Shown here one piece after another: positions 50,711-54,839 of a stretch of 54,839 nucleotides of DNA (within the stretch, counting starts at the first letter, position 1; each line of letters starts with the position of its first letter). Source of the stretch: Candidatus Nomurabacteria bacterium (GTDB lineage: Bacteria; Patescibacteriota; Minisyncoccia; Phycocordibacterales; Phycocordibacteraceae). Under the pieces are notes generated by a model. It had not been told where the DNA came from. It worked only from the letters and a program-made list of their open reading frames with translations, and searched no databases. A program made the translations under genes and the position numbers. The stretch lies in NCBI GenBank assembly GCA_943353835.1, contig CALRBA010000004.1:1-54839 (forward strand), in the 5' to 3' direction.

Positions 50711-50742
50711 AAAAACCGCGCACTCAAAAGAGCGCGCGGTTA
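50711..50742 (-). terminator. Terminator of the sugar-transferase gene
   Basis: An 8-bp AACCGCGC/GCGCGGTT stem followed on the minus strand by T5. The TAA stop codon of the gene is part of the stem. Confidence 0.75.
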
Positions 50743-51309
50743 GATTCCCTTGCATCGCAGAACCGTTGAAACGGTTCTGCAGAGAATGCGCAAATCAAGC
50801 CAGATGCAGTGGTGGCTGATATAGAAGATGTCAAGACGAAGACCGCATCGGATGCCACGCCTCAGTGACCACATGCGTCCTTGAATCTGCTCAAGCCCGG
50901 TAAGGCCAGGCCGAATATCAAGACGATGCGCATAAGCAGAAACTTCCTGAATACGCTTTTCAATTATTTCAGCCTGAAGAGGGCGCGGTCCGACCATGCT
51001 CATCTGCCCTAAAAGCACGTTGACGAGCTGTGGCAATTCATCCAGATGCGTCTTCCGCAGGAATCTCCCTGGTTCCGTCACACGATCGTCGCCTGATAAA
51101 ACAACATCAAACGGCTGCCATGTTTTATCCTCCATAGTTCGGAATTTGAACATAGTGAATGGTGCGCCGCGATAACCGAGACGTACCTGCCGAAAAATGA
51201 TCGGCCCCGAGGATGTTGCTTTGATCCAAACCGCGATGAAAGGAACGACCGGTACGATAATTACCAAGAAAGCCAATGCTGCGAGAAAATCAAAGATCCT
51301 TTTTTCCAT
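50740..51309 (-). CDS. Monotopic phosphoglycosyl transferase (bacterial sugar transferase)
   Basis: 189 residues, PglC/EpsL-size. One N-terminal hydrophobic re-entrant helix (about 7-28), then MFKFRTM, FLRKTHLDELPQLVNVLLGQMSMVGPRPL with the catalytic Asp-Glu of the LDELPQ motif. Transfers a sugar-phosphate to undecaprenyl phosphate to begin glycan or glycoprotein assembly. It has its own consensus promoter, a strong Shine-Dalgarno (AGAAGGAG) and its own terminator, and it splits rpsJ from rplC. No other glycan genes are nearby. An inserted cassette is likely. Confidence 0.9.
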   Translation of the reverse strand: MEKRIFDFLAALAFLVIIVPVVPFIAVWIKATSSGPIIFRQVRLGYRGAPFTMFKFRTMEDKTWQPFDVVLSGDDRVTEPGRFLRKTHLDELPQLVNVLLGQMSMVGPRPLQAEIIEKRIQEVSAYAHRLDIRPGLTGLEQIQGRMWSLRRGIRCGLRLDIFYISHHCIWLDLRILCRTVSTVLRCKGI

Positions 51310-51929: not shown

Positions 51930-53129
51930 TTACGCTGTAATCTTCGTGACGACTCCAGCACCGACAGTCTTGCCTCCTTCGCGAATAGCGAAACGTTGCT
52001 GCTCTTCTAGCGCGACAGGCGCGACAAGCTTCACGTTGAAGGTCACCGTATCGCCCGGCATCACCATCTCCTTACCCTCGGCGAGCATCACTTCTCCCGT
52101 GACGTCGGTGGTACGGATATAGAACTGCGGCTTGTAGCCCGAGAAGAACGGCGTGTGTCGTCCTCCCTCGTCCTTGGAGAGAATGTACACTTCCGCGATA
52201 AAGTCGGTGTGAGGCGTGACTGAACCGCTCTTCGCCAGGACTTGGCCGCGATGCACATCTTCTTTCTTAGTTCCACGAAGGAGAATACCAGCGTTGTCTC
52301 CAGCTTGGCCCTCCTGCAACTGCTTGTTGAACATTTCAATGCCGGTGACGGTGGACTTCACCGTCGGCTTAATACCGACGATTTCAACTTCCTCGCCGAC
52401 CTTCACCTGCCCGCGTTCAATACGACCGGTGACGACAGTCCCGCGACCTTCAATAGAGAATATGTCTTCAATCGGCATGAGGAACGGCTTCGTGAGCTCG
52501 CGCTCTGGCATATCAAAGTATGTGTCCAGCGTATCCGCAAGCTCTTTTACCTTAAGTGCCCATTCATCGTCCACTGTCTTGGCGTCAAGCGCCTTGAGGC
52601 CAGAACCGCGGATAATCGGTGTAGCTACACCATCGTAACCCTGCTTTGTGAGTAGCTCGCGGATCTCCTCTTCGACGAGGTCGATGAGGTCCTGCTCGTC
52701 CACCATATCTACCTTGTTCAAGAATACGATGAGCTTCTTGAGACCCACCTGCTTGGCGAGGAGGATGTGTTCACGAGTCTGAGGCATTACGCCGTCAGTG
52801 GCGGCTACCACTAGTACTGCTCCGTCCATTTGGGCGGCGCCGGTAATCATGTTTTTGATGTAGTCTGCGTGTCCCGGCGCGTCAATGTGCGCGTAGTGAC
52901 GATTCGGCGTCTCATACTCCGAGTGGTGGAGCGCAATAGTAATACCGCGCGCCTTCTCCTCTGGCGCACTGTCAATCTTATCAACGCCTTCAACGCGGGC
53001 GCTGTATCCCTTGTCCGTCAACATAGAGAGGACATGTAGGATGCCGGCGGTGAGGGTCGTCTTCCCGTGGTCAACGTGACCGATGGTGCCCACATTCATG
53101 TGCGGCTTCGCACGATTAAATTCTGCCAT
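51930..53129 (-). CDS. tuf: Elongation factor Tu
   Basis: 399 residues. G1 GHVDHGKT (17-24), G2 region [14 protein letters not shown] (differs from the usual INTAHVEYET), G3 DAPGH (Ala in place of the usual Cys), G4 NKVD, and domains 2 and 3 ([23 protein letters not shown]). Delivers aminoacyl-tRNA. It is separated from fusA by 591 nt that contain a small gene and two terminators, and it has its own promoter. Confidence 0.97.
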
Positions 53130-53247
53130 AGTGTTCGGTTAAATTAATAAATCACGAATTAATATCCGACACGAGTCGGAAAACACTCCGGCTCGCCACT
53201 AATAACAGCAGAAAGCCAAAGAGCGACGCCAAGATGCGTTACATATG

Positions 53248-53276: not shown

Positions 53277-53296
53277 GACGGTGTGCATAAAATAAA

Positions 53297-53334
53297 ACGG
53301 CCACCGATTCGCCTTGTGGGCGAAGGGCGGCCGT
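53297..53334 (-). terminator. Terminator after the 46-residue gene
   Basis: An ACGGCC/GGCCGT outer stem and TTCGCC/GGCGAA inner stem, then TTTTATTTTAT on the minus strand. It separates the small gene from tuf. Confidence 0.75.
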
Positions 53335-53371
53335 ACGAGCTGTGCGAGTGGTGTCACACAGCGCTCGTTCG

Positions 53372-53512
53372 TTAGGCGAGATACGGGTCGCGCTCCTGGT
53401 ACCACAGTTGGTTTACTTGCTCAACAGTGGGTGGAGGGGTCTTTTGCTCCTCGCTAGTCTTTGTGAGTGCCTGCAGCTCGGGCTCCGTACTTTCCTGTGC
53501 CGTACTCTCCAT
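53372..53512 (-). CDS. Small hydrophilic protein, 46 residues, between fusA and tuf
   Basis: Starts at ATG 53512 with the strongest Shine-Dalgarno in the window (AGGAGG, 5 nt spacing) and ends at TAA 53372. The protein is acidic and polar (MESTAQESTEPELQ at the start, a triple Pro, then EQVNQLWYQERDPYLA at the end). No membrane helix, no known family. It is flanked by a terminator downstream and preceded by a stem-loop with a U-rich tail (53544-53564). The ribosome site and bounded transcript favour a real gene. Confidence 0.6.
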   Translation of the reverse strand: MESTAQESTEPELQALTKTSEEQKTPPPTVEQVNQLWYQERDPYLA

Positions 53513-53543
53513 TTCATCCTCCTGTAAAAGATCAAAACGGACC

Positions 53544-53564
53544 GAGGCCTCCGGTGGAGACCTC
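53544..53564 (-). promoter_or_regulatory. Stem-loop with U-rich tail before the 46-residue gene
   Basis: A 9-bp stem (one G-U) with a 3-nt loop, then GGTCCGTTTTGATCTTTT on the minus strand, ending just before the Shine-Dalgarno. Possible attenuator for the small gene. Confidence 0.4.
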
Positions 53565-53671
53565 GTGTGTATCTGGTTTCGTTAGAATCTAGACACAAGC
53601 GAGGGCTCCACCATGGGTGGTAATGAGGAGTCCGAGAAGGTTCTGTCTGTGCGACATACGTGAATGATAAC

Positions 53672-53720: not shown

Positions 53721-54839
53721 TTATTTACGACTTGCAATGATGTCGTCGGCGATATTTTTAGGGACGGTGTCGTAGTGGTCAAACTCCATCGTCATAGAGC
53801 CACGGCCCTCGGTCATAGAGCGGAGCGTCGTGGTGTAGCCGAACATTTCAGAGAGCGGCACTTTCGCTTTCACGACTTTGTTCAATCCTCGTTCGTCCAT
53901 GCCATCTATCTGTCCGCGCTTGCCCGAGATGTTGCCGGTGATGTCGCCCATGAACTGCTCCGGCACTATAACTTCAATGCGCATAATCGGTTCAAGGATA
54001 ACGGCCTTCGCTCTGCCGGCCGCCTCTTGGAAGGCCATTGAAGCAGCGATTTTGTAGGCGATTTCTGAAGAGTCCACATCGTGGTAGGAGCCGTCGTATA
54101 GGTCGACAGAAATGTCTACCATCGGGAAGCCAGCGAGGAATCCTCTCGCCATCGCTTCGCGAAGACCCTTCTCAACAGGGTTAATAAATTCCTGTGGAAT
54201 GGCGCCACCCTTGATGTTGTTGATGAACTCGAAGTGGTCTTCACGTGTGACGTTCTTGGCCACCTTCTTCTCCGGATCCACAGGTTCCATCTTCTTCATG
54301 CGGATCTTCACGTGACCGTACTGACCTTTACCTCCTGTCTGCTTAATGTACTTCCCCTCTGCCTCGGCACTTCCGAGAATCGTTTCGCGATACGCCACCT
54401 GCGGCTTCCCTACATCCGCGACGACATTGAACTCACGCTTCATGCGGTCCACGAGAATTTCTAGATGCAGTTCACCCATGCCCGAGATAATAGTCTCACC
54501 GGTCTCTTCGTCAGTCTTAATGCGGAATGTCGGGTCCTCGTCTGAGAGCTTGTGGAGCGCGACGCCCATCTTCTCTTGGTCGGCCTTGGTCTTAGGCTCT
54601 ATGCGGAGAGATACCACCGGCTCCGGGAATTTAATTTCTTCTAGAATAATCGGATTATCTTCGTCACAGAGTGTGTGTGAGGTCCTCGTATCCTTCAACC
54701 CAACCGCGGCGGCGATTTCTCCTGTGAACACTTGTTCAACCTCTTCGCGCTTGTTCGCTTGGAGACGCACGATGCGACCAACACGTTCTTTAGATCCGGT
54801 AGTTGAATTGTAAACGTATGAACCGGATGCGAGCGTGCC
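53721..54839 (-). CDS. fusA: Elongation factor G, C-terminal part (gene runs off the window)
   Basis: 373 residues in frame to the window edge; the true start lies beyond. Covered: the end of domain II ([36 protein letters not shown]) and domains III-V ([65 protein letters not shown], and [25 protein letters not shown]). Translocates tRNA-mRNA on the ribosome. The frame opens at 54770 with a Val codon that is internal, not a start. Confidence 0.96.

Follow-up and report, generated by a model that had tools for sequence, protein, structure and literature searches.

The fusA–tuf locus and its probable attenuator–microprotein cassette

The 54,839-nt stretch of DNA analysed here (the window) is contig C4 of a Candidatus Nomurabacteria bacterium genome of 534 kb and 98.5% completeness, whose nearest named relatives, by comparison of EF-Tu, are Candidatus Kaiserbacteria, Adlerbacteria and other Patescibacteria. 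The minus-strand gene order at the locus is fusA (ending at 53721), a cassette composed of an attenuator and a microprotein gene, tuf (51930–53129) and rpsJ. In the direction of transcription, the features are:

53664–53669 (−): −10-like TATCAT, separated from the leader ATG by six bases; TAGTAT or TACTAT stands there in relatives
53589–53657 (−): leader ORF of 22 codons, MSHRQNLLGLLITTHGGALACV and a stop; homologous leaders in seven other genus genomes
53622–53639 (−): putative regulatory codons CTT CTC GGA CTC CTC ATT (Leu-Leu-Gly-Leu-Leu-Ile); Leu runs also in nine leuA-linked leaders
53616–53632 (−): segment 1, which pairs with segment 2 and overlaps the regulatory codons
53585–53612 (−): segment 2, which pairs with segment 1 or 3 and contains the leader stop codon
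53553–53580 (−): segment 3, which forms the antiterminator when paired with segment 2 and the terminator when paired with segment 4
53543–53552 (−): segment 4, 3′ arm of the intrinsic terminator
53533–53542 (−): U-rich tail of the attenuator terminator, GTCCGTTTTG
53518–53523 (−): Shine–Dalgarno sequence AGGAGG of the microprotein, 5 nt before its ATG
53372–53512 (−): microprotein ORF (target gene), 46 aa from ATG; frame conserved in the sister genome G007; C-terminal tail LWYQERDPYLA, a form of the tail found on other genus targets
53288–53340 (−): terminator behind the microprotein, GGCCGCC...GGTGGCC with a T-rich tail

The cassette lies between fusA and tuf in the window, in genomes G007, G014, G029 and G107, and in others, and this position had led the earlier note to propose a translation-related small protein. 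Such an inference is not supported. The gap varies in length among relatives from about 170 to more than 1400 nt and is filled by unrelated genes in other genomes; terminators of its own flank the cassette; tuf is preceded by a separate promoter-like −10 and a conserved leader, both behind the terminator; and the homologous cassette of G075 adjoins dnaJ rather than lying in the fusA–tuf gap. Moreover, the product family occurs in just 7 of the 93 genus genomes. We consider a translation-related role tied to the fusA–tuf region very improbable.

The gap is insertion-prone and holds species-specific small genes in relatives (loci L096, L097, L092, L012 and L015); some gap genes resemble, by eye, toxin–antitoxin or nucleotidyltransferase genes, and in L096 and L097 the fusA 3′ end is duplicated. 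In the tuf 5′ UTR (53205–53240, minus strand), a near-invariant block, TAACGCATCTTGGCGTCGCTCTTTGGCTTGTCTGC, follows directly after the tuf −10, with a GAGYCGG...CCGACTC hairpin on its 3′ side. The block is present in one copy per locus in 44 of 44 genus loci, found no match in an Rfam search, and is a possible tuf leader RNA. Within the ribosomal-protein operon, a sugar-transferase-like gene (50740–51309, minus strand) lies between rpsJ and rplC.

Coding status of the microprotein ORF

The earlier note had described an acidic, hydrophilic 46-residue gene with AGGAGG at an ideal distance and a terminator downstream. Our analysis bears out each of these points: the ORF, its start codon, its composition and the 5-nt spacing are as claimed, and a hairpin at about 53297–53334 is followed by TTTTATTTT. 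A similar hairpin follows the products at loci L122, L123 and L131. The ribosome-binding site had also been called the strongest; it is one of the best in the window without being unique, as AGGAGG occurs there 32 times, in several further cases at a suitable distance from the start codon of a longer ORF.

Conservation of the frame in relatives, on which the earlier note had staked its proposal, is seen in the one genome pair that could inform on it. G007 has an uninterrupted ORF at the corresponding position, with 34 of 46 residues (74%) identical. The substitutions between the two are distributed 8/6/18 over the codon positions, and the two alternative frames, both with stops, retain 26/46 and 22/46 identities. 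The dN/dS ratio is about 0.14 (NG86) or 0.33 (YN00), a measure of purifying selection taken from the single window–G007 pair. Together with a C-terminal motif common to more distant genomes, this pair makes up the evidence for coding, and it suggests that the ORF is conserved as a protein to an extent more than expected by chance.

A probable leader-peptide attenuator upstream of the microprotein

The U-tailed stem–loop that had been noticed upstream of the microprotein is present at 53565–53543 and is formed by segments 3 and 4. It is part of a Leu-codon leader-peptide attenuator, and not a plain fusA terminator. The marks of an amino-acid attenuator are found here: a putative leader ORF carries a run of sensed codons (LLGLLI, with Leu, Ile or Phe runs in homologues), and a mutually exclusive antiterminator and intrinsic terminator lie downstream of the leader. 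Segment 1 contains the Leu codons and ACCACC, and its pairing with segment 2 amounts to −9.6 kcal/mol in the window and −12 to −17 in most relatives; the S1:S2, S2:S3 (antiterminator) and S3:S4 (terminator) helices exclude one another. Folding of the 125-nt leader gives −47.6 kcal/mol (z = −5.0), and the whole stretch contains four terminator-like sites against 0.5 expected from shuffles. The position of the −10-like sequence suggests that the transcript may start, leaderless, at the leader ATG.

At least five Leu, Ile or Phe within seven residues are found in 0.2%, 0 and 0, respectively, of the 22-mers from the window's translated frames. The window's own leader, with four Leu and one Ile, is slightly weaker than those of relatives with five Leu, and the G075 leader has lost most of the Leu run.

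The leader ORF and the three mutually exclusive helices were found in ten divergent copies. Among ten sequences, changes on both sides occur in six antiterminator and five terminator pairs, and slid versions show far less pairing. Among sixteen sequences, 26 of 41 pairs have changed on both sides and none of 500 shuffles reaches the observed score, counts that lean towards the structure because this alignment was fitted to it. An Rfam search with the window element and the leuA-linked copies returned no match.

Relatives of the leader and their products within the genus

Searching the 93 genus genomes with blastn and a covariance model, R1, detected the attenuator element in eight. The leaders read MSHKQNLLGLLLTTSGGGFACV in G068, MAHTQNLLGLLLTTSGGGFSCV in G065, MARRQQNLLGLLLTTPGGGFSCV in G014, MARKQQNLLGLLLTTSGGGFSCV in G029, MQRRQNLLGLLLTTNGGGFGRV in G107 and MAQTHQHCFLTKLIPTTGGGFVRV in G075; that of G001, MHTRTAKLLDLLLTPTQGGGPARV, directly precedes leuA, and that of G007 is masked by a run of N. 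No match to the leader was found in 80 tuf-bearing loci of named genomes, or in phage, plasmid and viral-contig sequences.

The genus products range from 46 to 111 aa, and their sole common feature is a C-terminal tail of roughly WYxxRDxYxA, which reads LWYQERDPYLA in the window, LWYEERDPYLA in G007, WWYLRRDPYCA in G065, WWYPRRDCYCA in G107, NWYSLVRFDPCLA in G014 and G029, and NWYRDRDPYCCHLQ in G075. In G068 (L120) the attenuator is intact, no tail-bearing ORF lies behind it, and the product gene appears to have been deleted. A product profile run over the 93 genomes found nothing convincing away from the leader, and the microprotein and its 101-aa relatives gave nothing significant against Pfam, NCBIfam, PHROGs and PDB sequences. 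AlphaFold2 yielded a modest model for a 101-aa relative, with a beta-alpha-beta-beta-alpha arrangement (mean pLDDT 71), a disordered conserved tail and no PDB neighbour below E 0.001; the model of the 46-aa microprotein is of low confidence except for a C-terminal helix.

Elsewhere in the order, two orphan targets each consist of a LeuA/CimA regulatory domain standing alone, one behind a Leu leader (L139) and one behind an Ile leader (L177), at 80 bits each. The 46-aa product matched neither the LeuA_dimer profile (PF08502) nor any other Pfam or NCBIfam entry. A LeuA-domain ancestry of the genus products was tried with hhalign against a LeuA-domain set and was not supported (E = 0.23). Other orphan microproteins behind the switch have a Trp near a basic C-terminal tail (QWVSR, RWLLRQL, AWTTRQL and NWWSEKMTRK; L136, L142, L147 and L151), which is possibly a common functional tail.

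LeuA status of the carrier genomes

A LeuA-like protein was searched for in the window's genome and was not detected. The HMGL-like catalytic domain was likewise not found in 14 other orphan-carrying genomes, several of which are incomplete (69–83%); G065 has one remote HMGL-like match, and the domain is present in G001 and G041, where the switch is linked to an enzyme. In a cell without LeuA, a Leu sensor would exert no feedback control over Leu synthesis, which leaves two live readings, a starvation response or a relic. As a relic, the cassette would be the decaying remnant of a leuA attenuator whose enzyme has been lost, and the 46-aa ORF a functionless leftover. The missing LeuA, the regulatory domains standing alone among the orphan targets and the lost product of G068 are all consistent with such decay. 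However, the dN/dS of the ORF (about 0.14 to 0.33), its strong ribosome-binding site and the compensated RNA pairs speak against it, and the genus products have no sequence link to the LeuA domain. We regard the relic as unlikely and, on the apparent purifying selection on the ORF and the compensated pairings, favour a starvation response.

Codon runs and pathways in the wider family

A second covariance model, R2, was trained on Leu-type leaders and used together with R1 across the order, class and phylum. R2 matched in 41 of 397 order genomes, representing 27 genera (E up to 1e-4); the carrier counts are lower bounds, because strict filters were used in the large searches. G775 (L146) and some of the weakest matches were excluded for want of a recognisable leader ORF, and several opposite-strand matches mirror the same element through its palindromic structure.

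Leu runs precede leuA at nine loci (G001, G150, G1052, G767, G524, G040, G588, G721 and G534). Ile runs precede the citramalate synthase gene cimA at two (G041, whose CimA scores 601 bits against TIGR00977 with a cut-off of 450, and G792) and the threonine dehydratase gene ilvA at two (G495, and G524 behind a ridA-like gene), and Phe runs precede prephenate dehydratase at two (G704, FFFFF; G741, FFF). In every case where a known enzyme is encoded next, the leader run agrees with its pathway. In these 15 relatives, the downstream gene serves the metabolism of the sensed amino acid. Since R2 was built from Leu-type leaders, the Ile and Phe leaders before matching enzymes approximate an independent test of the sensing logic, which at the level of sequence appears well supported. 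Some genomes contain both a Leu-run and an Ile-run switch, such as G552 (L172 and L195, about 550 nt apart), G792 (L187 and L188) and G541 (L175 and L185).

Sequence conservation across genera is unusually high in the 3′ half of the leader, a pattern that could reflect nascent-chain or RNA constraints beyond the Leu codons. This conservation raises the alternative of an arrest peptide, in which the conserved end TTxGGGFxCV would stall the ribosome in response to a metabolite or drug, the Leu run being incidental; many known leader-peptide attenuators do sense antibiotics (PMC8274638, PMC4335068). Against this, the run consists of Leu, Ile or Phe according to the pathway that the downstream gene serves, and a search for a resistance gene downstream found none. 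The conserved stretch also coincides with segment 2, so that RNA pairing explains its conservation. An arrest peptide is, in our judgement, distinctly unlikely.

A model for leucine-responsive control of the microprotein

The window gene is probably the target of a ribosome-mediated, Leu-responsive transcription attenuator. The transcript would begin just upstream of the 22-codon leader ORF. With ample leucyl-tRNA, the ribosome would reach the leader stop codon inside segment 2, leaving segments 3 and 4 to form the intrinsic terminator and end transcription. When leucyl-tRNA is scarce, the ribosome would stall at Leu-Leu-Gly-Leu-Leu over segment 1, so that segment 2 pairs with segment 3 and the terminator is blocked. 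The 46-aa microprotein would then be transcribed and translated from AGGAGG, with the second terminator setting it apart from tuf. This reading draws on genome comparison for the anatomy, the covariation, the codon–pathway match, the absence of LeuA and the coding conservation; the order of ribosome events is modelled on established trp/leu attenuation, and the microprotein itself is presumably made.

Elsewhere in Patescibacteria, members of this putative switch family precede leuA, cimA, ilvA and prephenate dehydratase. In the window's genome the attenuator has become separated from biosynthesis and would instead control a small orphan protein. Given this detachment and the lack of a detectable LeuA, its likely role is in the leucine-starvation response of an auxotroph. 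More broadly, we tentatively raise the possibility that auxotrophic Patescibacteria kept attenuators after pathway loss to induce small dedicated proteins, either stand-alone effector-binding domains or microproteins with WYxxRDxYxA-like tails, when a partner or the environment supplies too little leucine or isoleucine. Orphaned biosynthetic switches would in this way have been built into a starvation response.

Patescibacteria are known mostly from their genomes, and they gain here a probable sensor for amino acids, the specificity of which is legible in the codons of the leader. The work also yields a covariance model of an RNA family absent from Rfam, together with a list of unannotated small genes, probably induced by starvation, and it raises the question of why a Leu attenuator is kept without LeuA and attached to a microprotein.

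Comparison with known systems

Our literature search turned up no description of attenuators of this kind from Patescibacteria or the candidate phyla radiation, an absence that is not proof. The stand-alone domains of L139 and L177 are copies of the LeuA allosteric (dimerisation) domain PF08502; in contrast, neither the 46-aa protein of the window nor its 101-aa relatives in the genus match it significantly. Compared with the leader attenuator of the Escherichia coli leu operon (Rfam RF00512, Leu_leader), the window element differs in sequence and conserved core, and the RF00512 covariance model gave no match to it even at E up to 1; its target, in a genome that lacks LeuA, is a microprotein.

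In Staphylococcus aureus, a leucine-rich, Leu-sensing attenuator peptide of the ilv-leu operon is reported to control branched-chain amino-acid genes (PMC5794164). It resembles our Leu-sensing leader peptide as described, and, unlike the window switch, it controls a biosynthetic operon in a prototroph-capable organism. The LEU element of Actinobacteria likewise encodes a Leu-codon leader peptide upstream of leuA, and it is described as a pseudoknot that pairs the Leu codons with the leuA Shine–Dalgarno sequence, with no classical terminator (PMC1262725). The Patescibacteria switch shares the Leu-codon leader peptide upstream of leuA but, unlike the LEU element, has an intrinsic terminator and an antiterminator.
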